Shown in pieces: positions 3,763 through 15,663 of a stretch of DNA of 21,257 nt. The translations under genes were made by a program, and so were the position numbers. The stretch lies in assembly GCA_019242465.1 (NCBI GenBank), contig JAFAVL010000222.1, positions 1 through 21,257 of the forward strand, in the 5' to 3' direction. The notes beneath the pieces were generated by a model. It saw only the letters and a list, made by a program, of their open reading frames with translations, had not been told where the DNA came from and searched no databases. Origin of the DNA: Chroococcidiopsidaceae cyanobacterium CP_BM_RX_35. GTDB lineage: Bacteria > Cyanobacteriota > Cyanobacteriia > Cyanobacteriales > Chroococcidiopsidaceae. Every line of letters begins with the position of its first letter. Position 1 is the first letter of the stretch.

Positions 3763-5616
3763 ATGGTAGAACAACTGATCGGCAAAAGGATTTCTATACC
3801 AGGACAGTTCACAGGTTCCGTGCTAGTTGAATCTGCAAAAGTTGTTGAAGACACATGGCTGCTACGGGTTCGCGATCGCCAGGGAGAATTGCACGACGCA
3901 TACCTAACAGCAACAGAAGCTTATGAGATTTTAGCTAGTTACGAGCAGGTATCAGCTGTTCCTGTTGATGCAGAGCAGTTCTTCCTCTTCATTGAGTCGG
4001 CGCGAATCAAAACAGCATATGACTACGATCGTCATTTTGCGGTGAGTCTCAGTGGAGTACGTCCTTTACCCCATCAGCTAGAAGCTGTTTACGAAAGAAT
4101 TCTGCCGCAAGTCCGGCTGCGGTTTTTGCTAGCTGACGATCCGGGAGCTGGAAAGACAATCGTGGCTGGACTGTTGTTGAAGGAGCTTAAGTTGCGCAAT
4201 GCTGTTGAACGAGTGTTGATTCTCGCGCCTGCTCCCTTGACGCTCCAATGGCAGGACGAACTACGCAGCAAGTTTTCTGAAACTTTTGAAGTTATCAACT
4301 CAATCTTAGCTAAAGGACAGTTGGCGGGAAATCCTTGGGAAAGGTTTCGCCAGTGTATTGCTTCGATTGATTTTGCCAAGCGAGATGATGTTGCTCCGGA
4401 TATTTTGCAGGTGGACTGGGATTTGGTAATTATTGACGAAGCCCATAAATGCTCGGCTCGAACTCAAGGAGACGAGCTAAGACGCACTGGGCGATACAAA
4501 TTAGCAGAAGAATTATCGCGGATTTCTGAACGGATTCTATTACTAACAGCTACACCCCATCAGGGAAATGTCGATCAGTTTCACAACTTTCTCCGTTTGC
4601 TCGATCCAGATCAATTTATTTGTGACAAACTTAATCCACAAATGCTGAGCTTGGAGGATAGCCCTTGGTTTCTGCGTCGAATCAAAGAGGAATTGAAAGA
4701 TTTTGAAGGTTGTCAACTCTTCCGTAATCGGTATCCCATCACAATACCTTTTGAGCTATCCGAGTTAGAAAAGTATCTATACGACCAAGTTACAAACTAC
4801 ATCAATAAATATCTAGGTAAAACCAAAGGACGCAAGCAAGCGGCAGTAGCTCTGGCTCGGACTGTATTACAGCGGCGTTTAGCAAGTAGTTTAAATGCCA
4901 TTTTTAGTTCGTTGAAAAAAAGGCAGCAGCGGTTTAGTAGCCTGTTAGACGAACTAGATGGCTTATCGGTAGCAGAACAACGCGATCGCCTGATGAACTT
5001 GGGTAAGCCTGTTGATTCTGAGATAGAGAGTGATGATTGCGATGAGGAACAATTAGAGGATTTAGCGATTGAATCCACAGTTGCAGAACAATTGGACCAA
5101 CTGCGTGAGGAATTACGAGAACTGGAGCGGTTAGTTAAGCTGACTCAACAGACAATCGATCTCGGAAATGAAACTTAACTAAATGCCCTGAAAGAGTGCT
5201 TATTGAGAGTCGAATTTGATGAATTAAAAGATGGACGCGGCAAACTACTCATTTTTACAGAGCATCGAGACACTCTAGAATATCTGAAACAGAATCTCAC
5301 GGATTGGGGATATAGTACTTGCGAGATTCATGGTGGGATGAACGCACTAGCTAGAAAATCAGCTCAAAAAGATTTTCAGTTCAATCAGCAGATTTGTCTG
5401 GCGACAGAAGCAGCGGGAGAAGGGATAAATTTACAATTCTGTCGATTGATGATTAACTACGACCTTCCTTGGAACCCGAACCGATTGGAACAGCGAATGG
5501 GGCGAATTCACTGAATTGGTCAGGAGCAAGATGTTTATATTTTTAATTTTGTCGCCATCAACACAGTAGAAGGCAGAGTACTAGAAAAGTTATTGCAGAA
5601 ATTAGAAGAAAGGTAG
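3763..5616 (+). pseudogene. SNF2-family helicase (RapA/DrmD-like), broken by two stop codons and 3' truncated
   Basis: The reading frame runs 3763-5616 but is interrupted by TAA at 5176-5178 and TGA at 5512-5514, both in the same frame, so these are nonsense changes and not frameshifts. The first part carries Walker A DDPGAGKT (residues 125-132), DEAH (225-228) and TATPH, with an alpha-helical insert up to the first stop. The second part holds the helicase C-domain: LLIFTEHRDTL, ATEAAGEGINLQF and QRMGRIH. The TGA falls where the family has arginine in motif VI (GRIHRIGQ), and matching protein continues after it. The last readable residues (LEKLLQKLEER) meet the left end of an IS element, so the remaining C-terminal part is lost. 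Such helicases occur in defence loci, DISARM DrmD among them, but no partner genes are present here. Two shorter ORFs remain open (3763-5178 and 5203-5514). The element is most likely dead. Confidence 0.88.
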
Positions 5617-5633
5617 TAATGCATAGTGATGAT

Positions 5634-6059
5634 TTAGCACTGCAATCGGGCATTGTAATCATGAACAAAGTACCAGACCGCCCCAATGTGGTTACTCAGC
5701 TTTTTAGAGAACGAGAGCGTCTTGCGAACTAAGCGCCCCACTCGTTGCCGCAAGGTATTGTTGAATCGCTCAATGTAACTTGTGCCACCACTCTGCTTGC
5801 CAACAGCTTGATGTCGCGTGTTCGGTATTACCTGTACATAAGCCTCCCAGAAGTCGGTATAGCAAACGGCACACTGTTGATAGACAGGAGGCAGCGAGTG
5901 CCACAGCCCTTTAGCTCCCTTACAGCTACGATCACCCACATAAACACCAACAAGCTCTCGGGTTGCCTGATCAATGGAAGCGCCAAATCCACTGCTTGTT
6001 TGGCTTTGAGCCAACAAACGACCACATCTCGTCGAGTTGAATGGTCAGCTTACCTGGTT
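5634..6059 (-). pseudogene. InsB-like IS1 transposase, frameshifted
   Basis: Read on the minus strand after a -1 slip in the A8 run (6058-6065), the protein continues LDEMWSFVGSKPNKQWIW, which holds the first catalytic aspartate of the IS1 DDE domain. That frame stops near 5977. The rest (IDQATRELVGVYVGDRS, TDFWEAY with the second Asp, SYIERFNNTLRQRVGR with the Glu) resumes in a different frame, open from 6017 down to 5634. A small indel around 5979-5990 (a 1-base insertion or 2-base deletion relative to the expected WIWLA) explains this. The -1 slip is normal for IS1 elements; the second frame change is not. The copy is probably unable to make full-length transposase unless the indel is a sequencing error. 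Confidence 0.8.
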
Positions 6060-6341
6060 TTTTTTCGTGACTTCAACCTGCTGTGGGGTTTGGTAGTATT
6101 TCTGGTTGACGTACATCTGTAACCACCGTTCAGAAACGCCTGTCACTCGTGCAATTGCCGCCAGTGCAAGTCGTTCAAGCAACAACTTATCAATCAGGCT
6201 ACGAGTTGTGGCATCAATGGGTTGCCGGGTTGGATGCTCAACAAACTGGCGTCCACAGACTCGGCAGCGATAGCGCTGTTTACCGTAGTGAGTGCGTCCG
6301 TTTTTGACAACTTGGAGCGAGTGACATTTCGGGCAGGACAT
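6045..6341 (-). CDS. InsA-like IS1 DNA-binding protein
   Basis: This 98-residue protein starts MSCPKCHSLQVVKNG and has a CxxC...CxxC zinc ribbon (C3, C6, C26, C29; the RYRCRVCGRQF motif). A helix-turn-helix region follows (ALAAIARVTGVSERWLQMYV). This is the N-terminal half of IS1-family transposases, which binds the terminal repeats and, made alone, represses transposition. Near its end is a run of eight A residues (plus-strand T8 at 6058-6065), the usual slippery site for making the InsAB' fusion by -1 frameshifting. The ORF itself is intact. The transposase half that follows carries an extra frameshift, so this copy may produce only the regulator. Confidence 0.85.
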   Translation of the reverse strand: MSCPKCHSLQVVKNGRTHYGKQRYRCRVCGRQFVEHPTRQPIDATTRSLIDKLLLERLALAAIARVTGVSERWLQMYVNQKYYQTPQQVEVTKKNQVS

Positions 6342-6496
6342 AGAGCGAGGCGGTGAGGGAGACGTTATTCTCTAGTTTACCCACAGCATTACTATTCATG
6401 ATTACCGGCACCATATTGCTCGACAATAGACCTGAGCCAGTAATTTTAGAGCTAGTGACGACAATTATTATTACACATGAGCTTTTCTCAAAATAA

Positions 6497-6528
6497 AACA
6501 GAATTCCCTTTATTTATAAGACGACTGA
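6497..6528. promoter_or_regulatory. Conserved control block, copy A (candidate sigma-dependent promoter/operator)
   Basis: Thirty-two consecutive bases, from AACAGAATTCCC to AAGACGACTGA, are identical to 9725-9756 although the flanks have many differences. The match extends with gaps to about 6552 (GAGCGGATT, GATTTATCTA). The preserved block lies in the region shared by the divergent sigma operon and exported-protein gene. That suggests selection on a binding site, but strand and exact elements are not determined. ECF-type half-sites such as CGTC on the minus strand or CGAC on the plus are present within it. Confidence 0.5.
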
Positions 6529-6660
6529 TGGAGCGGATTAGATTTATCTAAACACGGTCTAAACCTGACTTACTAAATCATATCAAGTAGTTTAAATCCG
6601 AAATTAGAGCACATTCGTCTTTAAAGATAGATGGGACGCAGTTGAACTATTTCAACACTA

Positions 6661-6764
6661 TAGCAATCCTAAAAGATTCATGAAATCAATTTGTGGTGCA
6701 GGCTTCTAGCCGACGCGAGATGCATTATCCGCGCCCCGCTTTCACAACACAAATTGGATTGCTA
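6661..6764. mobile_element. MITE-like insertion, about 104 bp
   Basis: The outer ends are inverted copies: TAGCAATCC at 6661-6669 and GGATTGCTA at 6756-6764. An inner pair CAATTTGTG (6687-6695) and CACAAATTG (6748-6756) also pairs, with 17 bases separating the two motifs on the left side. There is no ORF. The interior is GC-richer (CCGACGCGAG, CCGCGCCCCGC). The paralogous segment at about 9885-9900 lacks it: TTCAACACTATA and CATATGTAAGTTTAAG flank the element here, whereas copy B reads continuously CTGAACCTTATATCTAGGTTTAAG-like sequence. Copy B therefore acts as an empty site, and the insertion appears to target a TA-rich spot. Such elements are mobilised in trans by a transposase elsewhere. 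Confidence 0.72.
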
Positions 6765-6860
6765 CATATGTAAGTTTAAGGTAGCAGATGATCTACTATC
6801 AACATCTGCTAACTGGTTCAACTGCGTAATTCCTATCGAGTTTACACAGGAGTTTACGCC

Positions 6861-7157
6861 ATGAAACGTCTAATAATTAGTGGGTTCTCAGTTCTGCTAG
6901 CAATTGCTGCAGCTACACCTGCCTTTGCCTATGGAAAAGTGAATGAATCCAACACAGGAGACAGTCAATCTATTCCTGCAAACAGTTCTATGCAGCCCTC
7001 AGCACCGGAGTCGATGACAATACATTCAAACAAAAGGGAGCCACAAAGCAAGTCTATTACTTCACCGCTCTTGAACCCGAACCCGCCAGCGGAAGTCCCA
7101 TCGCCTAGCCTCTTCCATCTAGATCCTAGTAGTGCAGAGCAGTCCGGTGTGCACTAG
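6861..7157 (+). CDS. Small exported Ser/Pro-rich protein, copy A
   Basis: This 98-residue protein has a clear signal peptide (MKRLIISGFSVLLAIAAATP, cleavage probably after AFA at residue 23). A low-complexity Ser/Pro/Gln/Asn-rich mature part follows, without cysteines. The start is supported by AGGAG at 6848-6852, eight bases upstream. It is the paralogue of the protein at 10115-10429; identity holds up to PAEVPSPSL, after which the two C-termini are unrelated (FHLDPSSAEQSGVH here). The stop lies in a hairpin. I do not recognise a family or function. Its position beside a conserved sigma-linked control block suggests an envelope-stress-regulated secreted protein. Confidence 0.7.
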   Translation: MKRLIISGFSVLLAIAAATPAFAYGKVNESNTGDSQSIPANSSMQPSAPESMTIHSNKREPQSKSITSPLLNPNPPAEVPSPSLFHLDPSSAEQSGVH

Positions 7158-7161
7158 GATC
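7122..7161 (+). terminator. Hairpin spanning the stop codon of the copy A exported protein
   Basis: GATCCTA-gta-GTGCA (7122-7136) pairs with TGCAC-TAGGATC (7150-7161) around a 13-nt loop; the left arm has a 3-nt bulge. The right arm contains the TAG stop of the upstream gene. There is no T run after it, so termination is uncertain. It lies ten bases past the point where similarity to copy B ends, so it may instead mark the edge of an inserted segment. Confidence 0.4.
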
Positions 7162-7304
7162 AATGACGGCACAGTCATACAGAAGGAAGCGTTACACAAT
7201 TGCAGAATGATTTTTCGGTATTAGGCTGTGCCTTATATCTGCCTATAACTGTCTGGGGCAACTACAAGAGATTGCCCCTACAATTTCACACGAGGTCAAG
7301 AAAC

Positions 7305-7646
7305 ATGTTTCTCACAATCAAGCAGCTTAATTTGAATGAATTCAAACACCTAGACATCACCCAACTGGATTACATTATGGTGAAACTTGTCGGTCTACAG
7401 GATCTAGTTTACCAGAGGTTTGATGCGATAGAGGTTCATGACCCCAAGGTAGCCCAGTTACTGTGTAGGATGATCCCGGCTCGTTGTCCTTTTAAGCGAG
7501 ACATCAAGCTTTTTGACCATACCTTATTTCGCATTCCATCTCTGTGCAAGTTGAACCCTCTCTACGAGCAAGTGGTTAGCCTTCGCTTCAAGGCTCTATC
7601 TTATCTAGCAAATGAGTGCGGTGAGGATGTAGCAAGATATTGCTGA
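7305..7646 (+). CDS. Mo-dependent nitrogenase C-terminus family protein
   Basis: The C-terminal 70 residues match the small cyanobacterial family named after a Mo-nitrogenase C-terminal domain. Visible are CPFKRDIKLFDHTLFRIPSLCKLNPLYE-type sequence and a VVSLRFKALSYLANECGEDV ending with YC. Conserved cysteines occur in LLCRMIPARCPF, LCKLNPLYEQ, NECGED and the C-terminus. The name is historical; these proteins are stand-alone and their role is not established. The frame is open from TTG at 7200, but I chose ATG 7305 (MFLTIKQLNL, 113 residues) because a GAGG at about 7292 precedes it and the family similarity lies downstream. It sits in a block that interrupts the duplicated sigma locus, with a small membrane protein gene after it. 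Confidence 0.75.
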   Translation: MFLTIKQLNLNEFKHLDITQLDYIMVKLVGLQDLVYQRFDAIEVHDPKVAQLLCRMIPARCPFKRDIKLFDHTLFRIPSLCKLNPLYEQVVSLRFKALSYLANECGEDVARYC

Positions 7647-7747
7647 CAGCAAAGAGTAGCAAGTGTTTGCATGCACCTTAGAATCAGCAACAAGCCATCG
7701 AGATCACCTAAAGAATACTATCACTAGCCTTGGCATGAGGCTAACTT

Positions 7748-7882
7748 ATGAACCCCAACATCTCTTTTGTAACAGCACTTCAGTTCTTGACAATGGTCTA
7801 TGTGACCTCAGTGATGCTTGTACTGCTAGCTTCTTACTTTTATTTAGTAGTAATTGAAACTCTTGAAGAAGCTAGTGACTAA
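7748..7882 (+). CDS. 44-residue single-pass membrane protein
   Basis: The ORF reads MNPNISFVTALQFLTMVYVT and continues with a hydrophobic helix (about residues 8-36), ending in an acidic tail (ETLEEASD). GAGG at 7737-7740 stands seven bases before the ATG, a better signal than for most genes here. An overlapping 64-codon frame (7663-7857) has Cys/Ser-rich composition and no start signal. The peptide resembles tiny cyanobacterial thylakoid or plasma-membrane subunits in form, but I recognise no specific family. It lies 101 bases after the nitrogenase-C-like gene and could be co-transcribed with it. Confidence 0.6.
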   Translation: MNPNISFVTALQFLTMVYVTSVMLVLLASYFYLVVIETLEEASD

Positions 7883-7914
7883 TGTGAAAAGTTAGCGATT
7901 TATCTCCTCTTCAG

Positions 7915-7992
7915 TGGGGTGAGTTAATCGGCTTAATAGTGACTAGTCTGCGTATGACTAGTCTGTTTTTTCAAGGGTATGAGCCAAAATGA
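7915..7992 (+). pseudogene. Fragment of the PepSY-type membrane protein gene (copy A)
   Basis: This stretch matches 10638-10713 in the intact membrane/cupredoxin gene: GTTAATCGGCTTAATAGTGACT is shared almost unchanged. In the corresponding frame it reads LIGLIVTSLRMTSLFFQGYEPK and then stops at TGA (7990-7992). The intact gene has LIGLIVTGLSMTGLFSRRYQPKQV at the same place. Only the last membrane segment remains; the 5' part is missing and the match fades by about 8020. It is the second piece of copy A of the duplicated locus, separated from the first by about 800 bases of unrelated genes. Confidence 0.8.
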
Positions 7993-8072
7993 GTAGATGG
8001 CTGATACTCTTGTTTATGCTGTTTAATTAGATAAAATCAAGCTAAGTTTTCCTCAAAAAATTTTTCCACATA

Positions 8073-8104
8073 GAAAGTGGAAGCCAAGTTTCGGCTCCCA
8101 CTTT
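8073..8104 (+). terminator. Stem-loop, probable terminator
   Basis: GAAAGTGGAAGCC (8073-8085) pairs with GGCTCCCACTTTTC (8092-8105) with one A-C mismatch and a 7-nt loop. It lies between a rightward small-gene block and the leftward anti-sigma gene ending at 8326, so it could stop transcription from either side. The T tract is short on both strands. The rest of the gene-free stretch 7883-8325 holds only the membrane-gene fragment at its left end; 8106-8325 shows nothing recognisable. Confidence 0.55.
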
Positions 8105-8325
8105 TCGGATCTTCAGTACCGCCTAAACTTTAACTGAATCATATTGTTTAAGGTATCGGTTCTCTACCTGGTTAACAACTCTATTCAGAGATGCTAGCAA
8201 CAAGTAATAGATCAAAAACATATACTAAGCTTAACTTTGCCTAAAATAGAACTGAGCCAGCATCTTCGGTTCAAGCGAAAACCTGTTTTTCTCCTGGAAA
8301 GGCTGTTTGACTCAGTTGGGACTAC

Positions 8326-9045
8326 CTAGATGCTTTTCATGACTATAGGTCCCACTGGTTCCGAGGTGACTGGGGATGTTTCTAGGGTAACGATTAACCC
8401 TGAGACCTCATCATAAAGGTCGGTGGGCACAGAAAGTTTGGCTAAAACTATTCCCTGCGCACTGGCACTCAGCTGTCCACAAGGAAGCTTGTCACCATCA
8501 ACTACCGCCCAAAGCCGATAGACACGTCCTGCAGGCGCAGCCGGAAGATGTCGGATGACTAGAGCGATTCTTTGGCGCTCAAGATCCATAACAACGTTGC
8601 CAGAAGCAGCATCTGCTAGATTCGTGCCTTTCAGGGAGAACAGGCGAGTCTCAGAATTTTGCAACATCATGGGGACGGCTGTAGCAATCCTCAGCTCTTG
8701 CTGCAGACGATAATTAGCTAGACCCAGAACCAGGATTAACAATGCGGCCACACTGCCAGCAAATTTACCCCATGGTAAGGCAGGTCGTCTCAATTCTGTG
8801 GTCCTGTTGGCTGGGAAAGTGGCAGCTTCGAGGATAGCTGAGCCCAGGTGTGGCGGAGGCTCGACTTCATTTAGGCCATAAAGCACCTGCTCTAGGACTT
8901 CCTCCACAAGATTCACCTGTGCAATTAAGTCTGGATTTTCTCTAAGCAGCTGCCTAAATTCCTCGGCTTCTTCGGGGTCAAGGTCACCCAAAACATAGCC
9001 TGCTGCTAACTCTTCTAGGTACTCGGGAGTTGAAGGTACATTCAT
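8326..9045 (-). CDS. Anti-sigma factor, RskA-like, membrane-bound
   Basis: 239 residues. The N-terminal cytoplasmic part (about 5-75) has the acidic helical YLEELAAGYVLGDLDPEEAEEF pattern of RskA-type anti-sigma domains, without the zinc-binding His/Cys motif of ZAS proteins. One membrane helix follows at about 95-112 (AGSVAALLILVLGLANY). Then comes an extracytoplasmic RskA C-terminal domain with a VYRLWAVVDGDKLPCGQLSA core. It should sequester the ECF sigma factor encoded seven bases upstream and release it on an envelope signal, probably through regulated proteolysis. The tight spacing indicates one transcript. The signal sensed is not evident. Confidence 0.88.
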   Translation of the reverse strand: MNVPSTPEYLEELAAGYVLGDLDPEEAEEFRQLLRENPDLIAQVNLVEEVLEQVLYGLNEVEPPPHLGSAILEAATFPANRTTELRRPALPWGKFAGSVAALLILVLGLANYRLQQELRIATAVPMMLQNSETRLFSLKGTNLADAASGNVVMDLERQRIALVIRHLPAAPAGRVYRLWAVVDGDKLPCGQLSASAQGIVLAKLSVPTDLYDEVSGLIVTLETSPVTSEPVGPIVMKSI

Positions 9046-9052
9046 AAGGCAC

Positions 9053-9694
9053 CTACCCTATTTGATCTTGGAGGATTGGCTTCAGTTTCAGCAGACCCTG
9101 ACGAGTCCAAGTCTTGACTGTCCCGAGAGGGATATCCAGTTTTTGCGCAATTTCCGACTGACTAAGTCCTTCGTCGTAAGCCATCTCTAATACCTGACGC
9201 TGCTGTTGTGAAAGTTGTGCTAAAGCTGACCGGACATGTTGGGAACGCTCTGTTAAGGAAGCTTGCTCAAAAGGAGAAGTAGAAGATGTTTCTGCAGTTA
9301 CTGTTTGCCCCCAGCGTTGAAGGAGTTTTAAGTTTCTGCTACGAGAACGAATTTTGTCGATTGCCCGGGAGCGAGTCATAGTGATGATATATCTAATGAA
9401 ATAGCCATGCTCGGGATTATAGGTAACATGACGCCACAGAGCCAGAAAAATTTCTTGGGTCAAGTCTTCTGCCTCTTGAGAATTTTTCAAGATTTTGAGT
9501 GCTACCCCGTACACCAGACTACCGTAGCGCTCATAGAGAATACCCAACGCCTCTGGTTGCCTGGTCTTCAGTGCCTGAAATAGCTCTGCATCGGTTAGGG
9601 GCGGTAGATCTTGAGGGTTGTAATTGCGAGAGCTAGGCTCCATATTGCTCGATAATAGACCGGACCCAGTAGTTTTAGCGCCGATAACAATCAT
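9053..9694 (-). CDS. ECF-type sigma-70 family RNA polymerase sigma factor (RskA-linked)
   Basis: Region 2 lies at about residues 53-118 (LYERYGSLVYGVALKIL, EAEDLTQEIFLALW) and region 4 at about 155-208 (LSQQQRQVLEMAYDEGLSQSEIAQKLDIPLGTVKTW with a helix-turn-helix). There is no region 3, so it is of ECF type. Pairing with an RskA anti-sigma gene resembles the SigK-like ECF group. Two starts are possible: ATG 9694, or ATG 9643 (MEPSSRN). The duplicated copy at 6411-6465 differs from this upstream part by a 3-base indel and several third-position changes, which suggests that the codons before 9643 are translated, so I keep 9694. It is divergent from the exported protein/cupredoxin/phosphoesterase operon, which it probably controls. 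Confidence 0.9.
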   Translation of the reverse strand: MIVIGAKTTGSGLLSSNMEPSSRNYNPQDLPPLTDAELFQALKTRQPEALGILYERYGSLVYGVALKILKNSQEAEDLTQEIFLALWRHVTYNPEHGYFIRYIITMTRSRAIDKIRSRSRNLKLLQRWGQTVTAETSSTSPFEQASLTERSQHVRSALAQLSQQQRQVLEMAYDEGLSQSEIAQKLDIPLGTVKTWTRQGLLKLKPILQDQIG

Positions 9695-9724
9695 TATTCC
9701 ACATAAGCTTCTCTCTCAAAAGGA

Positions 9725-9756
9725 AACAGAATTCCCTTTATTTATAAGACGACTGA
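9725..9756. promoter_or_regulatory. Conserved control block, copy B (candidate sigma-dependent promoter/operator)
   Basis: Identical over 32 bases to 6497-6528. Here it is preceded by GGA, giving GGAAACAGAATTCC (9722-9735), a small inverted repeat GGAA-N6-TTCC that is not preserved in copy A. The block begins 30 bases upstream of the sigma start codon at 9694 and is about 360 bases from the divergent gene. That favours a role in sigma operon autoregulation, or a long leader for the other gene. Which strand it serves cannot be settled from sequence. Confidence 0.5.
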
Positions 9757-10114
9757 CAGAGCGGATTGGATTTATCTAGATAGAGCTGTTAACTGAGATT
9801 GTTAAGTAATATTTAGCAGCTTAAATCCGATTGGGAGAGCAGATTCGTCTTCAAAGTAGATGATACACAGTTAGGCTATCTGAACCTTATATCTAGGTTT
9901 AAGTTAGCAGCTTATATCCTACAGACTTCTTTAAAAATAAGCATTTTTAAGACTTGAAAGGTTGACGCTGTGAAGGCTTCAGCTATCAAGATTTAAATTG
10001 CGGAAAGGTTTGTTTTATCTGGATTTCAGTCTTGATCTATCCAGAGGTCTGATGAGGAGCCGCTAACTGGTTTAACTGCGTAATTCCTATCGAGTTTACA
10101 CAGGAGTTGACGCC

Positions 10115-10429
10115 ATGAAACGTCTAATAATTAGTGGATTCTCAGTTCTGCTAGTAATTGCTGCAACTGCACCTGCCTTTGCCTATGGAAAAGTGCAGGA
10201 GTCAACGTTCTCCCGGAGGCTTCCTCCGGGAGCTGCGTTGACGTCGTCCAAAACAGGGGACAGTCAATCTATTCCTTCCAGATGTTCTATGCAACCCTCA
10301 GCACCGGAGTCGATGAAGACACAGTCAAACACAAGGGAGCCACAAAGCCGATCTAGCACTTCACCACTCTTGGACCCGAATCCGCCAGCTGAAGTCCCAT
10401 CGCCTAGCCTAATTAGGTTTGGGATGTGA
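10115..10429 (+). CDS. Small exported Ser/Pro-rich protein, copy B
   Basis: 104 residues with a signal peptide (MKRLIISGFSVLLVIAATAP, cleavage after about AFA at 23). Its low-complexity mature region parallels the paralogue at 6861-7157. AGGAG at 10102-10106 is eight bases before the ATG. Between residues 29 and 45 it carries an extra stretch, TFSRRLPPGAALTSS, encoded by a 42-nt palindrome that is missing from copy A; the insertion keeps the frame. The gene ends seven bases before the membrane/cupredoxin gene, so it heads the putative three-gene operon. No family is recognised, and the function is unknown beyond export. Confidence 0.72.
   Translation: MKRLIISGFSVLLVIAATAPAFAYGKVQESTFSRRLPPGAALTSSKTGDSQSIPSRCSMQPSAPESMKTQSNTREPQSRSSTSPLLDPNPPAEVPSPSLIRFGM
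10201..10242. repeat. Palindromic element inserted in frame in a coding sequence
   Basis: GTCAACG (10201-10207) pairs with CGTTGAC (10236-10242) and CTCCCGGAGG (10210-10219) with CCTCCGGGAG (10223-10232). The loop is CTT and there is a TT/CTG internal bulge. The paralogue at 6861-7157 lacks it: flanking codons read GTGAATGAATCCAACACAGG there and GTGCAGGAGTC...AAAACAGGGG here. It adds about 15 codons without breaking the frame, so it behaves like a small interspersed palindrome that tolerates translation. Confidence 0.85.
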
Positions 10430-10435
10430 GTAGCA

Positions 10436-11143
10436 ATGAATATGAAACGAGGGTTTCGTAAATTCCATCGCCTGTTTGCCATCACTGTCTGTCTACCTTT
10501 GATCGTGACTGCAGTGACTGGACTCGGCATCACGATAGCTTCGGAGTGGTTCCACCATGAAGAGTTAGGCGAATTTCTCATAAAAGTTCATACCGGGGAA
10601 ATTTTTGGACTGGCAGCGATTTATCCGATTTTGAACGGGTTGGGGTTAATCGGCTTAATAGTGACTGGTCTGAGTATGACTGGTCTATTTTCCCGACGTT
10701 ATCAGCCAAAACAAGTCTTGGCGGCAGTACTTGCTTCTGCGGTGTTGATGACTTGGCTAGCGTCCTGTAGTCGTACTGCCCAATCTTCAAGGTCTCTCAA
10801 TCAGCCACTAGTAAAGGTCGCTCAACCGCTGGAACAATCAAAGCCAAGTCTCCCACAACCAAATGTCACTGTCAAAATTCACAATTTCAAATTCGAACCA
10901 GCAATGCTCAAGATTAGTAGCGGCGAAACTGTCAAGTTTGTCAACACAGATGAAGAACCGCACACGGTCACTGCCAAAGATGGTGTCTTCGATTCCAAGG
11001 CTCTAGATTCAGGTGAGACTTGGACGCATACCTTCGCTGCTACTGGAACCTTTCCCTACATTTGTGCCATTCATCCCTTTATGCAAGGGACAGTTACTGT
11101 AACTTCAGCAGGAGTCAAAAATGCAACGCCGAAAGTTCATTAA
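10436..11143 (+). CDS. PepSY-type membrane domain fused to a cupredoxin domain
   Basis: 235 residues in two parts. Residues 1-92 form a small PepSY-TM-like unit: helix at about 12-35, HTGEIFG around residue 52, helix at about 60-86. A hydrophobic stretch (94-110) ending in LASC111 follows, which looks like a lipoprotein signal peptide with lipobox. A Ser/Pro/Gln linker leads to a plastocyanin-like cupredoxin domain (about 143-224). The type-1 copper ligands are visible as H176 (EEPHTV), C210, H213 and M216 (YICAIHPFM). The domain is probably periplasmic or thylakoid-lumenal and could carry electrons or bind copper. The internal lipobox suggests two formerly separate genes joined in frame. The gene overlaps the phosphoesterase gene by 23 bases. 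Confidence 0.82.
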   Translation: MNMKRGFRKFHRLFAITVCLPLIVTAVTGLGITIASEWFHHEELGEFLIKVHTGEIFGLAAIYPILNGLGLIGLIVTGLSMTGLFSRRYQPKQVLAAVLASAVLMTWLASCSRTAQSSRSLNQPLVKVAQPLEQSKPSLPQPNVTVKIHNFKFEPAMLKISSGETVKFVNTDEEPHTVTAKDGVFDSKALDSGETWTHTFAATGTFPYICAIHPFMQGTVTVTSAGVKNATPKVH

Positions 11144-12032
11144 TCATGTCGGTTGGACCGGTCTTGGTATCGTGTGGGCTGTTAGTGGAGAAAACTTATT
11201 AACCTCCTGCACGATAGGTACTTCTGCAGCTAAAAAACAATTGGATTCCACCTCGCTGTCATTTGTTCAAATTAGCGATAGTCACATTGGTTTCCACAAG
11301 CCAGCCAACGAACATGTGACAGCAACGCTCCAAAAAGCCATCGATGCGATCAATGCATTACCGACACCGCCAGCGTTTGTCGTTCATACAGGTGACATCA
11401 CTCACCTGTCTAAGCCAGCAGAGTTCGATCAAGCTAAGCAGCTGCTTTCACAATTGAAAGTACCGCTGTTCACCCTGCCAGGTGAGCATGATGTAATTGG
11501 CGATCGGGGCAAGGCTTACTCCGAGGCGTTCAGCCAAGGTGATAAAACAGAAGGATTGCAGTTGTGGGACCACTCCGGTGTCCATTTTGTGTCGCTGACC
11601 AATGTCCTCGATTTTGGTGAGACAGGAGAAGGTAAGCTGGGTCAAGCTCAACTTGACTTGCTTGCCAAAGATCTCGCGGCCCAAAAACCTGATACGCCTT
11701 TAGTTGTATTTAGTCATATTCCTCTGTATGACCTGTACCCGAAGTGGGGTTGGGCGACAGCAGATGCGGCGAAGGTGCTCTCGTTGTTGTCTCGCTTTTC
11801 ATCTGTGACTGTACTAAATGGCCATATTCATCAAGTCGTTCATCACACGGAAGGCAATATCCGGTTCTCTACCGCTGCCGCAACAGCGTATCCACTACCG
11901 CCGCCAGGGCAAGGAGCGCAGCCAGCTCCAGTCACGTTGCCAGAGAACCACTTGCTGGCGGCATTGGGATTCCGCACCGTTGAATTTGCTCCCAGACAGG
12001 ATGTCAAAGTTGACCAACATTCCCTGGCTTAG
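11121..12032 (+). CDS. Exported metallophosphoesterase (calcineurin-like), Tat signal
   Basis: 303 residues. The N-terminus MQRRKFINHVGWTGLG is a twin-arginine signal, with a possible lipobox ending at C30 (LLTSC), so it may be a Tat-exported lipoprotein. Family metal-binding motifs are in order: D53-x-H55 (SDSHIG), G91-D92 (HTGDITH), G121-E-H-D124, H199 (FSHIP) and G234-H-x-H237 (NGHIHQ). The third motif is usually GNHD/E; here Glu replaces Asn, a change in a bridging metal ligand. The substrate is unknown; CpdA-like phosphodiesterases and alkaline phosphoesterases share the fold. AGGAG at 11110-11114 precedes the ATG by six bases, and the gene starts within the cupredoxin gene, indicating translational coupling. 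Confidence 0.88.
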   Translation: MQRRKFINHVGWTGLGIVWAVSGENLLTSCTIGTSAAKKQLDSTSLSFVQISDSHIGFHKPANEHVTATLQKAIDAINALPTPPAFVVHTGDITHLSKPAEFDQAKQLLSQLKVPLFTLPGEHDVIGDRGKAYSEAFSQGDKTEGLQLWDHSGVHFVSLTNVLDFGETGEGKLGQAQLDLLAKDLAAQKPDTPLVVFSHIPLYDLYPKWGWATADAAKVLSLLSRFSSVTVLNGHIHQVVHHTEGNIRFSTAAATAYPLPPPGQGAQPAPVTLPENHLLAALGFRTVEFAPRQDVKVDQHSLA

Positions 12033-12416: not shown

Positions 12417-13448
12417 TCACTGGGATTGACATAGCAACAAGCCAAACCAGCGATTTGGATCTGTCCAGACTTGACGTGGTACTAAACCTTGGCTTAAAAG
12501 TTCCTGCTGTAAGACTTCAAGGTCAAATTTGCGGGAAATTTCCGTCAAGATTGTCTCATTAGTCTCAAACTGAACAGTGAGGTCTAGAGTTCGTAGCTGA
12601 ACAGTCTGTGATCGCAAACTCCGCAAATGCAGCTCGATTTGATGCTGCGATTCGTTATAAAACGCCCTGTGTTCAAATTGTGTGGTGTCAAAGTTACCAT
12701 CGAAACGTCGATTCAAATGATCCAGCACGTTCAGATTAAATGCCGCTGTTACCCCTTGACTGTCGTTGTATGCTGCTTCTAACAAGTGTTTCGGCTTTTG
12801 CAAGTCCACCCCCAACAAGAAATACTCGCCCGGCTTTAGGGTAGCTGTGATTTGGGAAAAGAACTGGTCGCATTCTTGAAGACTAAGATTTCCCAACGTG
12901 CTGCCAATAAAACAAATCATCCGGCTAGGAAGTTGAATCGGTGGCAATTGCGCTAGTGCCAGTTCGTAGGTACTAACCAAACCATTAACCCGGAGTGAGG
13001 GATAATCTGCCAGCAACTGTCTAGCACTGCTTTCCAAAATACCAGCACTGACATCAATTGGTAGATATAACAAGGGATAGTCTTGATGGGCGTAGGCATC
13101 CAATAGAATCCGGGTTTTTGTAGAGCTACCGCTGCCCAGTTCCACCAATTCACACGCCCTAGTTAGACGAGCGATCTCGTCAGCGTAACGTTGTAAGATT
13201 ACCGTTTCTGTCCTTGTTGGATAGTATTCTGGTAACTCACAAATCTGCTCAAACAGTTCAGAACCACGATCATCATATAAGTAACGAGCGGGCAAAGATT
13301 TGCCAGTGCGGGTCAACCCCTTAACAACATCACTCCCCGCTGTCGAGGTAACTAAGTGAGTTGCCTCTACCAAACGCTTTATCTGCAAGCGTTTCTCAAT
13401 TGCGGACTGGCTAAGAACCCTACCGCTTGCTGCCTTGTGAATGGACAT
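12417..13448 (-). CDS. egtD: L-histidine N-alpha-methyltransferase (ergothioneine biosynthesis)
   Basis: 343 residues, close to the family length. It converts histidine to hercynine with three SAM molecules, the first step of ergothioneine synthesis. Visible are the RYLYDDRGSELFEQICELPEYYPTRTE substrate-binding region (52-81), the SAM motif ELGSGSSTKTRILL (103-116), IDVSAG (131-136), FIGSTLGN (180-187), the substrate-pocket Tyr in EAAYND (227) and the E303-I-S305 motif in LTEISRKF, matching residues that position the imidazole in mycobacterial EgtD. The order egtC, egtB, egtD on one strand supports the pathway assignment. The 162-base gap before the start (13449-13610) shows no gene. Confidence 0.95.
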   Translation of the reverse strand: MSIHKAASGRVLSQSAIEKRLQIKRLVEATHLVTSTAGSDVVKGLTRTGKSLPARYLYDDRGSELFEQICELPEYYPTRTETVILQRYADEIARLTRACELVELGSGSSTKTRILLDAYAHQDYPLLYLPIDVSAGILESSARQLLADYPSLRVNGLVSTYELALAQLPPIQLPSRMICFIGSTLGNLSLQECDQFFSQITATLKPGEYFLLGVDLQKPKHLLEAAYNDSQGVTAAFNLNVLDHLNRRFDGNFDTTQFEHRAFYNESQHQIELHLRSLRSQTVQLRTLDLTVQFETNETILTEISRKFDLEVLQQELLSQGLVPRQVWTDPNRWFGLLLCQSQ

Positions 13449-13610
13449 GCAACCTCCATTTATTCGGCACGATACGCGCGGTTACGCATATGGCACACAC
13501 TTCAAAGAACGCCAACCCAAGAGGGCTTAGCATTACCGTCAGACAGTAAAACATAAAGGCATGACACACAAGATCAAACCTGAGCCAGATTTTTTAAACT
13601 ACTCTGTGCC

Positions 13611-14828
13611 TCACTTGGCACAGCGAAAACCTGCCAGAATTTGACGTATACCGGGATGATACCAATTGCGAAAGCTACAGCGTAAAGACCAAGGGCGAGT
13701 TGCCCAGCTGCCCCCTTTTAGAACCTGGTGTTGTCCATCAAAATAGACTTGGGAATAACCAGCATAGGGATAACTTACAAAACCTTCATATCCACAGAAT
13801 GTAGAAGCAGTCCACTCCCAGACATTGCCTAGCATGTCATTGCAACCGTATGCACTCTGCCCAGCTGGATAAGCATCTACTGGCGTCGTTTGTAGCGGCG
13901 GATAGCTATCTATCCCTACGTAAGAGTGATTGCATAATTGGGCAGATGGTGCCTCTTCTCCCCAAGGATAGCTGCGACGAATACCAGCAGTTGCATCCCA
14001 GGCAGCAGCTTTTTCCCATTCTGCTTCTGTAGGGAGCCGCTTACCGACAAACCGGGCATAGGCCTCAGCTTCATACCAGCTGACGCCATAGACGGGGTGG
14101 TTATTCCATGCGGGGTCGGTTGTCCAGTAGAGTGGTTGTGTAACATGCTGGCTCTGTTGCCATTCCCATCCCGCAGGCGACCACCAGTGAGGATTTTGGT
14201 AGCCCCCTGCCGCAATAAACTCTCGGTACTGCCCACATGTCACCGGATAACGGTCAATCGCGTAAGTTTCTAAATAATGCCGATGGCAAGGACGCTCATT
14301 ATCTAGGGCTTCGATTGCGTTATTGCCCTGCTCAAACTCACCTGCTGGGATCTCAATCATTTCATTTCTAGAGATGCAGCTTTGGGCTTCACATAAGTGG
14401 GGCGAGCCTTGTACCTTGAATTGAGCGTCCCAACGTTGCAACTGCAATACGAAAGCAATAGTTTCACTATGCTGGCTTTCGTGCTGAATTAGCCAGCGCC
14501 AGAGGCGTTCTTGTCGATCTAGATCAGCTCTTGGCAGGTAATCTATGACGTTTTCTCTAACCGTGTCTAGGTAGTAGCAAATTTCTGCCAAGGAGGGTAA
14601 CTTAACGCGCTCTGATTTAGGTAAACCATCAGCGACAAATAACTGGCGGTATTCTGGGAACAGAGCTGGCTTCCTTGCACTGCGCTCCAGCAGCCATAGA
14701 GATTCGGTATAAGCAATGTGCCCCAAGTGCCATCCTACAGGACTGAAGTCTAGGTGGGCTTGGCGACAGAAGGTGGCAGCATCCACTCCCTCAAACAAGG
14801 CAAGTGTGCCGATGCGGCTCTGCTGCAT
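13611..14828 (-). CDS. egtB: Hercynine oxygenase (sulfoxide synthase) EgtB
   Basis: This non-haem iron enzyme joins hercynine to gamma-glutamylcysteine or cysteine with O2. From ATG 14828 (MQQSRIGTLALFEG) it has 405 residues. The N-terminal DinB-like domain holds the iron ligands: HLGH (34-37) and HESQH (116-120). The FGE-sulfatase-like domain begins near 156 (MIEIPAGEFEQGN) and includes the C-terminal GNVWEW, GGSW and AGFRCAK motifs. The frame is open back to 15059, overlapping egtC by 194 bases. The first helix would be fuller with TTG 14897 or GTG 14912, so the start is uncertain; no ribosome site decides it. Co-encoded EgtC argues for gamma-glutamylcysteine as the substrate. Confidence 0.93.
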   Translation of the reverse strand: MQQSRIGTLALFEGVDAATFCRQAHLDFSPVGWHLGHIAYTESLWLLERSARKPALFPEYRQLFVADGLPKSERVKLPSLAEICYYLDTVRENVIDYLPRADLDRQERLWRWLIQHESQHSETIAFVLQLQRWDAQFKVQGSPHLCEAQSCISRNEMIEIPAGEFEQGNNAIEALDNERPCHRHYLETYAIDRYPVTCGQYREFIAAGGYQNPHWWSPAGWEWQQSQHVTQPLYWTTDPAWNNHPVYGVSWYEAEAYARFVGKRLPTEAEWEKAAAWDATAGIRRSYPWGEEAPSAQLCNHSYVGIDSYPPLQTTPVDAYPAGQSAYGCNDMLGNVWEWTASTFCGYEGFVSYPYAGYSQVYFDGQHQVLKGGSWATRPWSLRCSFRNWYHPGIRQILAGFRCAK

Positions 14829-14865
14829 ATCTGTAGCAATCGTTAAGGCGCGATCGCTCGCGTTC

Positions 14866-15663
14866 CTAAAATCGTACTTGATAGAGCTGGATCTCAAGGT
14901 CTTTCCCCACACTAATAACGCTCTGTTCAGGGCAACGATTCCAATTGCCGTCAAATAAAGGTTCTGACGCCACAATGGCTGCCTTTGGGAAGGCTGGATC
15001 GTCCCTGAGCCAGTAGAGAGAAGGCGCTGGTGTGCCGCCAGTTGCAAAGCGAGAGGCAACTAGATGATGCCCGTCACTCACAATCAGGTTGACAGAGACT
15101 GCCACTTGATCAGCCTGAGCTAGCTTGTCCAGGGTCAGCAACACAGTTTGCAAGGCTCTCTCTAAGGTAACATCTGGTTTGGCTTGCAGTTCATCAAGCA
15201 GCAGAGCAAAAATGTGTTCGGAATCAGTACTACCCTCAATCGACTGATAGGCGAAATTACTAAGGTGATCGCGGATTGATCGGTAGAGTGTTTGCCGGAA
15301 CCCTTCAATGCGACCGTTGTGAATGCACAAGAGTTGGTGGTTTTTAAAGGGCTGGCAGTTACTGATGTCTACACCCTGACCAGGGGTAGCACTGCGGACA
15401 TATCCTAGTACACATTCTGACTCAACATACCGTCCGAGACTAGGAAGGTTGACGTCATTCCAAATGGGTATCGTGTTTTTGTAGGTAAAAGGGTCTGTAT
15501 CTCGATGTAAGTGATACCAGCCAATACCAAAGCCATCAGCATTAGCGACTCCAGAACTCATCTCACGGGGCTGATAACTTTGGACAATTAGTGAGTGTTC
15601 TGGCTTGTACAGTAAGTAGTCGAGGGGAATTGACGGACCGAGGTATCCCAATAAACGGCACAT
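14866..15663 (-). CDS. egtC: Ergothioneine pathway class II glutamine amidotransferase-like hydrolase EgtC
   Basis: 265 residues beginning MCRLLGYLG, where Cys2 becomes the N-terminal nucleophile after Met removal. The Ntn-hydrolase core shows GFGIGWY, LGYVRSATPG, NCQPFKN, CIHNGRIEGF and STDSEHIFALLL. In the mycobacterial pathway EgtC removes the gamma-glutamyl group from gamma-glutamyl-hercynylcysteine sulfoxide. It is the first gene of the cluster; egtB follows with a 37-base gap or a small overlap depending on its start. egtA and egtE are not in the window, so glutathione-pathway gamma-glutamylcysteine synthetase and a lyase elsewhere would be needed. Confidence 0.92.
   Translation of the reverse strand: MCRLLGYLGPSIPLDYLLYKPEHSLIVQSYQPREMSSGVANADGFGIGWYHLHRDTDPFTYKNTIPIWNDVNLPSLGRYVESECVLGYVRSATPGQGVDISNCQPFKNHQLLCIHNGRIEGFRQTLYRSIRDHLSNFAYQSIEGSTDSEHIFALLLDELQAKPDVTLERALQTVLLTLDKLAQADQVAVSVNLIVSDGHHLVASRFATGGTPAPSLYWLRDDPAFPKAAIVASEPLFDGNWNRCPEQSVISVGKDLEIQLYQVRF

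Follow-up and report, generated by a model that had tools for sequence, protein, structure and literature searches.

The window analysed here, a stretch of 21,257 nucleotides from Chroococcidiopsidaceae cyanobacterium CP_BM_RX_35, contains one locus in two copies, A and B. The explanation that we consider probable is that an ECF sigma factor, a stress-type regulator, forms a control module with an RskA-type anti-sigma factor, that the output promoter and the exported gene of this module were duplicated, and that copy A had its partner operon replaced. The arrangement of copy A is old, being common to a second genome, G408, and is not a fresh decay. Overall, the locus is a well-resolved and fairly ordinary case of duplication and divergence. 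The parts of copy A, with its left and right neighbours, are:

5634 to 6341, minus strand: IS1-type transposase in two ORFs, 5634-6017 and 6045-6341 (Pfam DDE_Tnp_IS1, Zn_ribbon_InsA)
6407 to 6469, plus strand: remnant of the sigma gene start with its upstream bases (79% to 9636-9698)
6518 to 6545, minus strand: motif facing the lost sigma gene, AAATCT-N16-CGTCTT, one mismatch (sequence, alignment)
6594 to 6621, plus strand: forward promoter motif, AAATCC-N16-CGTCTT, kept in copy A of G408
6661 to 6764, plus strand: A-only segment with the ends TAGCAATCC...GGATTGCTA (sequence)
6861 to 7157, plus strand: exported protein A, 98 amino acids, C-terminus LFHLDPSSAEQSGVH (ORF, protein alignment)
7305 to 7646, plus strand: Mo-nitro_C (PF06967) protein behind copy A (Pfam E 2e-38)
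7894 to 7989, plus strand: remnant of the PepSY/cupredoxin gene, codons about 60-92 (79% to 10615-10711)
8035 to 8122, plus strand: hairpin block after the PepSY remnant, common to G408 (84%; fold z -2.4)

The sigma module and the operon of copy B comprise:

8326 to 9045, minus strand: RskA-type anti-sigma factor (Pfam RskA_C 1.7e-16)
9053 to 9694, minus strand: ECF sigma factor, likely start codon 9643 (Pfam Sigma70_r2/r4; NCBIfam NF009172)
9746 to 9773, minus strand: promoter motif facing the sigma gene (sequence, alignment)
9823 to 9851, plus strand: promoter motif facing the copy B operon (sequence, alignment)
10115 to 10429, plus strand: exported protein B, 104 amino acids, C-terminus SLIRFGM (ORF, protein alignment)
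10199 to 10248, plus strand: palindromic CGTC-tagged repeat lying in frame in copy B (fold z -6.5); the 45-nt insert that copy A lacks is at about 10199-10243
10436 to 11143, plus strand: membrane (PepSY_TM-like) and cupredoxin protein (Cupredoxin_1 4.9e-13)
11121 to 12032, plus strand: calcineurin-like phosphoesterase, last gene of the operon (Metallophos 5.8e-13)

Two collinear copies of one locus

The first-pass annotation had described a duplicated locus, and this was borne out: a repeat search and pairwise blastn within the window agree on three direct-repeat blocks, collinear and in the same order. Block 1 joins 6407-6662 to 9636-9891 (77%, E 1e-49), block 2 joins 6808-7111 to 10062-10410 (78% across a 45-nt gap, E 6e-92, the best blastn match; its ungapped parts are 94% and 87% identical in the repeat search), and block 3 joins 7894-7989 to 10615-10711 (79%, E 4e-19). 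Between 6663-6807 and 9892-10061 blastn gave no alignment. The order and orientation first described thus stand, with limits that shift slightly, block 1 starting at about 6407 instead of 6402 and block 3 running from 7894 to about 7990 instead of 7915-8020. The statement that copy A keeps the whole control region holds in part and fails for 6663-6807. The N-terminal codons of the sigma gene are indeed kept in copy A, about two to three of them if the start is 9643 and about 19 if it is 9694. Nearly all of the sigma gene is thus missing from copy A, as is most of the PepSY/cupredoxin gene. In all, the similarity takes in non-coding sequence, the beginning of the sigma gene and part of the interior of the PepSY/cupredoxin gene. 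The stretch 7112-7893 of copy A holds the Mo-nitro_C gene, whose Pfam match lies above the gathering score (130.8 bits, cut-off 27), and a 44-aa ORF with a hydrophobic stretch (by eye) at 7748-7882, between Mo-nitro_C and the PepSY remnant, which is unmatched in the G408 stretch.

The sigma protein (213 aa) matches Sigma70_r2 at 3.5e-19 and r4 at 8.5e-16, and exceeds the cut-off of NF009172 as a generic RNA polymerase sigma factor; the SigK model of NCBIfam, the second best, stays below its own cut-off (125.4 bits against 226). Because the outgroup alignments begin at residue 18 in L001-L003, the start codon is likely at 9643 and not at 9694, where the longest ORF begins. The anti-sigma protein adjoins the sigma gene, reaches 61.1 bits with RskA_C (cut-off 29.4) and falls just short of its NCBIfam model (98.7, cut-off 100); its gene has a dN/dS of 0.26 at a dS of 0.26 between the window and G408. 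In copy B, the Cupredoxin_1 match is significant and the PepSY_TM match is below its cut-off (0.0016), and the phosphoesterase is 76-85% identical across seven cyanobacterial outgroup loci. Neither exported protein matches a Pfam family at E 1. Beside the sigma module, ergothioneine genes occupy 12417-15663 on the minus strand, with egtD scoring above its NCBIfam cut-off and an EgtB-type gene slightly under it, and with an EgtC-like amidotransferase named from reading the ORF.

Copy A in a second genome

Among 19 genomes of one family, the exported gene was found in one, G408, which is the one genome besides the window in which copy A was seen in genomic context. On contig C85 of G408, the exported gene A, Mo-nitro_C, the PepSY remnant and a hairpin block matching window 8035-8122 follow each other in order. 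Behind them lie a TnpB-type gene, a third exported gene, two DUF29-like ORFs and one acetyltransferase-like ORF (all names by reading), and then the anti-sigma gene and the sigma gene, which meets the contig end at residue 132. Window 6566-7731, that is, the exported gene, forward motif, leader and Mo-nitro_C over about 1.2 kb, is 84% identical to G408, and window 8326-9300 is 92% identical. It is this sharing of exported gene A, forward motif, Mo-nitro_C, PepSY remnant and hairpin block that makes copy A an old arrangement, and the idea that it is a private decay product of the window genome is rejected. The first-pass term "decayed and split" accordingly applies to the sigma and PepSY parts of copy A and not to its exported gene, forward motif and Mo-nitro_C, which are conserved in G408.

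Details differ between the two genomes. The PepSY remnant covers the equivalent of window 10573-10659 in G408 and of 10615-10711 in the window, so that each lineage has trimmed a longer remnant. The Mo-nitro_C genes (dN/dS 0.29 over 111 codons), which adjoin copy A in both, are not identical in length and end: that of G408 (L049 10669-11064) carries near its end a second kind of palindrome, CAGTTGTTTCCCGC...GCGGGAAACAACTG, with its last residues changed. For exported gene A, dN/dS is 0.51 at a dS of 0.27, a weak constraint. The A-only segment folds no better than shuffles (z -1.1) and has a single match in G408, in the same place, at 88%. Within the PepSY remnant of the window, at 7941-7963, copy A differs from copy B in such a way that a direct repeat has become GACTAGTC...GACTAGTC with a run of T behind it, which looks terminator-like; terminator-like sites number three in 6300-8400 against 1.3 expected, and this piece is deleted in G408. 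Dead coding DNA may here have become a terminator of copy A.

The right end of the IS1-type element lies just left of copy A, and no target duplication was recognised by eye at its termini. Upstream of copy A in G408 there is a glutathione S-transferase-like ORF (by reading) in place of the element, so that IS1 probably arrived beside copy A later and did not bring about its state. That the duplicate stands next to mobile DNA, as first annotated, is true of its position in the window and probably does not account for its origin. To the left, a helicase-like gene (by reading of the ORF) at 3763-5619 is interrupted at about 5178 and ends at the IS1 element.

Contig C190 of G408 bears a further B-type copy, which is broken and ends after 64 codons. 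Of the long sigma ORF it still has residues 1-30, or about 13 residues when counted from the likely start; of the two motifs it has the one that faces sigma and lacks the forward one, and an IS200/IS605-type pair is inserted (names by reading of the ORFs). Shortly after it, a yjdF (azaaromatic) riboswitch was seen at L050 3205-3312. The sigma-adjacent B operon of G408 falls in the assembly gap between the end of C85 and C3, a contig of 3118 bases that ends inside the phosphoesterase at residue 226 (94% identical). We considered and rejected the idea that copy B is broken in G408, as C190 is the only assembled B-type copy found and the sigma-adjacent B operon is unassembled. In a cupredoxin search that covered six genomes, two had a match; the assembled part of G408 gave no intact cupredoxin relative at E 1e-6, and a 35% match to the PepSY part on C83.

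Outgroup loci and the ancestral arrangement

Nine loci with the cupredoxin protein were drawn from a genome collection, seven of them cyanobacterial (L001-L007). In six of these seven, the sigma and anti-sigma genes stand in the same order together with an exported gene, the PepSY/cupredoxin gene and the phosphoesterase, L005 starting too late to show sigma. Nostoc 106C, Fischerella PCC 9431, Scytonema, Rhizonema, an Oscillatoriales MAG and Scytolyngbya thus have the same gene order as the window. Unlike the window, they are single-copy where the flank allows a judgement: five of the six, all but L003, extend for 3.5 kb or more to the left of the anti-sigma gene, and in that flank tblastn found no match to either exported protein or to Mo-nitro_C; each of the five has one sigma and one cupredoxin gene and no second, in a protein search that a short remnant could escape. 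The comparison with relatives that the first-pass annotation had proposed therefore points, by protein search of five outgroup loci, to a single copy as the probable ancestral arrangement.

The slot of the exported gene is filled differently in the outgroups: five of six have a member of another family (PF-x4-LAYxG, recognised by eye), and L006 has neither. Members of that family were noted by eye at L001 9541-9906, L049 12850-13212 (minus strand), L051 3073-3348 and L052 1471-1851 (minus strand), and the promoter motif lies upstream of three of these four. In G408 such ORFs occur on C85, C39 and C28, those on C85 and C39 with the motif. The Nostoc member has no NCBIfam match. The exported family of copies A and B was found in none of the seven genomes of L001-L007, in 14 of 388 genomes of a class sample as weak matches only, and in two of 388 genomes of an order sample, one being G408 and the other a weak match.

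A candidate promoter motif

The sequence AAATCC-N16/17-CGTCTT faces both the sigma gene and the exported gene and recurs in the Nostoc, Scytonema and Rhizonema loci. Written as AAATCC-N15-18-CGTCTT, it has three matches in the window against 0.01 expected, and none of 100 shuffles had three; the motif was defined from these same three sites, so the window count is not independent and the outgroups are the test. Sites at the sigma slot were found in L001-L004, with the pair in Nostoc (L001) and Rhizonema (L003), a partial forward site in Scytonema (L002) and the forward site in Fischerella (L004), and the motif is absent at the sigma slot of L006 and L007. The alignments comprise nine forward and seven reverse sites. 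The sigma-facing site of copy A, with its one mismatch in the window, is lost in copy A of G408. Genome-wide, the 12-base motif is not enriched (73 matches in 19 genomes, against 100 for a reversed control), and in G408 five of its eight matches lie at these control regions, counts that would fit a small regulon. From the pair in the window, L001, L003 and partly L002, we suggest a candidate autoregulated sigma promoter with a conserved -35/-10 pair, and it is this motif that supports the annotated control of copies A and B by sigma. Such a candidate motif is of some value for ECF sigma factors of cyanobacteria: a passage of a 2009 review describes it as unclear how SigG, SigH and SigI of Synechocystis recognise their promoters (PMC2758279).

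The exported proteins and possible recombination between the copies

With copy B as query, 16 relatives of the exported protein were found at E 0.01, and with an alignment as query at least 25 (best 7995 candidates scored), the window's own two being included each time. They have two main C-termini, one SLIRFGM-like (B-form) and one SLFYLDPSSAxQPGxH-like (A-form). The A-form occurs in P0004, P0005, P0009, P0010, P0011 and P0012, P0011 being copy A of the window. The distant relatives P0017, P0018, P0020, P0022 and P0024 have LDPSSA behind a PxEVPSxxL-type motif. This distribution suggests that the A-form motif is probably, not surely, the older one and that the short B end looks derived. The case is weakened by P0018 and P0025, which end in the short tails SLQDYQV and SLYNYGV, closer to the B-form.

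Site counts among four copies gave, for 6663-6807, three sites grouping copies within a genome, 47 grouping A with A and none cross-wise, out of 132. For 6808-7045, leader and gene body, the balance tips towards grouping within a genome, with counts of seven, one and two out of 236, and 7046-7160 was uninformative because the C190 copy loses homology near 7050. The 47 of 50 informative sites that join A with A upstream come largely from the A-only segment, and so reflect a shared history of copy A and not a contrast within one alignment. The upstream tree likewise puts the A copies together and the B-type copies together (dlnL 50), though A and B may lack homology over this stretch. In IQ-TREE tests on 6806-7045, A-with-A was worse by 7.1 lnL (AU p 0.073), and on the coding part alone by 6.2 (p 0.059). 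In a body tree of 14 proteins, the A-form as one clade had an AU p of 0.0006, of 0.030 after dropping P0014, of 0.099 without P0014 and P0008 and of 0.026 without P0014, P0008 and P0013; P0008 and P0014 were labelled B in this test, though the former has its own C-terminus and the latter none. On that tree the C-terminal form shows no clustering beyond shuffles (166-171 of 500 as low). These tests are borderline, and their outcome depends on the rows kept. Later recombination or gene conversion between the gene bodies of A and B is possible and unproved.

A CGTC-tagged repeat in copy B

The insert in copy B is a strong hairpin with a CGTC-bearing tail. In a DNA search of G408, at least 36 of 44 matches, in at least 33 places, fall on this repeat (40 of 83 candidates scored). 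Many of the dispersed copies, not all, have tails such as TTCGTC, GTCGTC or TGCGTC. The repeat thus shows what characterises CGTC-tagged REPs, a palindrome with an unpaired CGTC at one end in many dispersed copies. Twenty-five of its places in G408 were read with their flanks (L041-L046 and L088-L107 among the locus identifiers). By raw counts, 14 of the 25 fall inside reading frames that stay free of stops for 230 codons or more, and for four of these 14 the end of the frame is no more than 30 codons away. Ten such frames were scanned and eight match Pfam families; two of the matches, to a pyridine nucleotide-disulphide oxidoreductase and to an HD_5 protein, continue through the insert, and the others do not. 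P0002 has the same kind of insert in the same place as copy B, and in G408 the repeat also occurs in the control region of copy A.

Interpretation

We propose that the ECF sigma factor and the RskA-type anti-sigma factor would form a control module with divergent promoters of the same type, as motif and gene order suggest. One promoter would drive the sigma gene itself, and the opposite one the operon of exported protein, membrane/cupredoxin protein and phosphoesterase. The duplication would have taken place in a common ancestor of G408 and the window genome and would have covered everything between the start of the sigma gene and a point inside the PepSY/cupredoxin gene, control region and exported gene included; the duplicate would have been placed left of the anti-sigma gene, where the two genomes share its structure. 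In copy A a Mo-nitro_C gene has taken the place of the cupredoxin operon, and the PepSY remnant left behind is trimmed differently in each lineage. Since copy A retains a forward promoter motif and a coding exported gene, it probably gives the sigma factor a second output, as a putative working copy with dead flanking remnants. Points that count against this model are that copy A is seen in context in one further genome, that the motif is not enriched genome-wide, is missing at the slot in L006 and L007 and has a partial forward site in L002, that the constraint on exported gene A is weak, that the sigma-adjacent B operon of G408 falls in an assembly gap, and that a protein search could overlook a short second copy in the outgroups. 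The case suggests a way in which duplication can add an output to a small regulon. It also illustrates that a remnant lying next to an insertion sequence is not necessarily the product of recent decay, and that one related genome changes such a reading.

It would be hardly conceivable that the similarity is restricted to the signal peptides and that there was no duplication. The weak matches in the class sample do lean that way, 8 of 15 falling within the first 46 positions, but the non-coding and PepSY blocks of A and B align as well by blastn, and the idea is rejected. A dying pseudogene cluster, a fragment of the duplication that is passively carried, would account for the differently trimmed sigma and PepSY remnants, for the abutting IS1 element and for the dN/dS of exported gene A, which is only 0.51. 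We nevertheless regard it as unlikely: the A-form protein is open in six distinct sequences, that of the window and five others, and the forward motif and Mo-nitro_C are conserved in G408.

Other exported genes of G408 (on C39, on C28 and the third gene on C85) resemble these copies in control region or signal peptide, C190 holds one more B-type copy, in broken form, and the mature domains differ behind a similar start. From these points it could be argued that A and B are separately placed members of a set of dispersed promoter-plus-signal-peptide cassettes, alike through recombination between cassettes and not through local duplication. We find this quite unlikely, as the similarity of A and B includes the sigma gene start and the internal PepSY piece, in order, which such a cassette does not explain. 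A more tentative thought, which we doubt without dismissing it, is that the spreading unit is a cassette of promoter, leader and signal peptide, behind which mature secreted domains, and now Mo-nitro_C, would be swapped in, with recombination keeping leader and signal peptide alike. If true, the regulon would grow by exchanging what follows one fixed secretion start.

Comparison with known systems

The module resembles the SigK-RskA type of pair in that an ECF sigma gene adjoins an RskA_C anti-sigma gene. It differs in its operon, which here consists of the exported protein, the membrane/cupredoxin protein and the phosphoesterase, and its promoter motif differs from what we take to be the SigK motif. 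Among the papers found for an RskA/cupredoxin/PepSY module, none presents this locus in its title or in the opening of its abstract. For the palindrome of copy B, the CGTC-tagged repeats, of which four families have been published (PMC3733652), come closest among known kinds. A results passage of that paper places CGTC repeats in five phyla, Cyanobacteria not among them, and its abstract counts Cyanobacteria among the phyla with members of both super-families. With these repeats and with the Rickettsia palindromic elements, as described there, our repeat has in common that it is a short palindrome with a CGTC end, dispersed through the genome and in some places in frame within genes.
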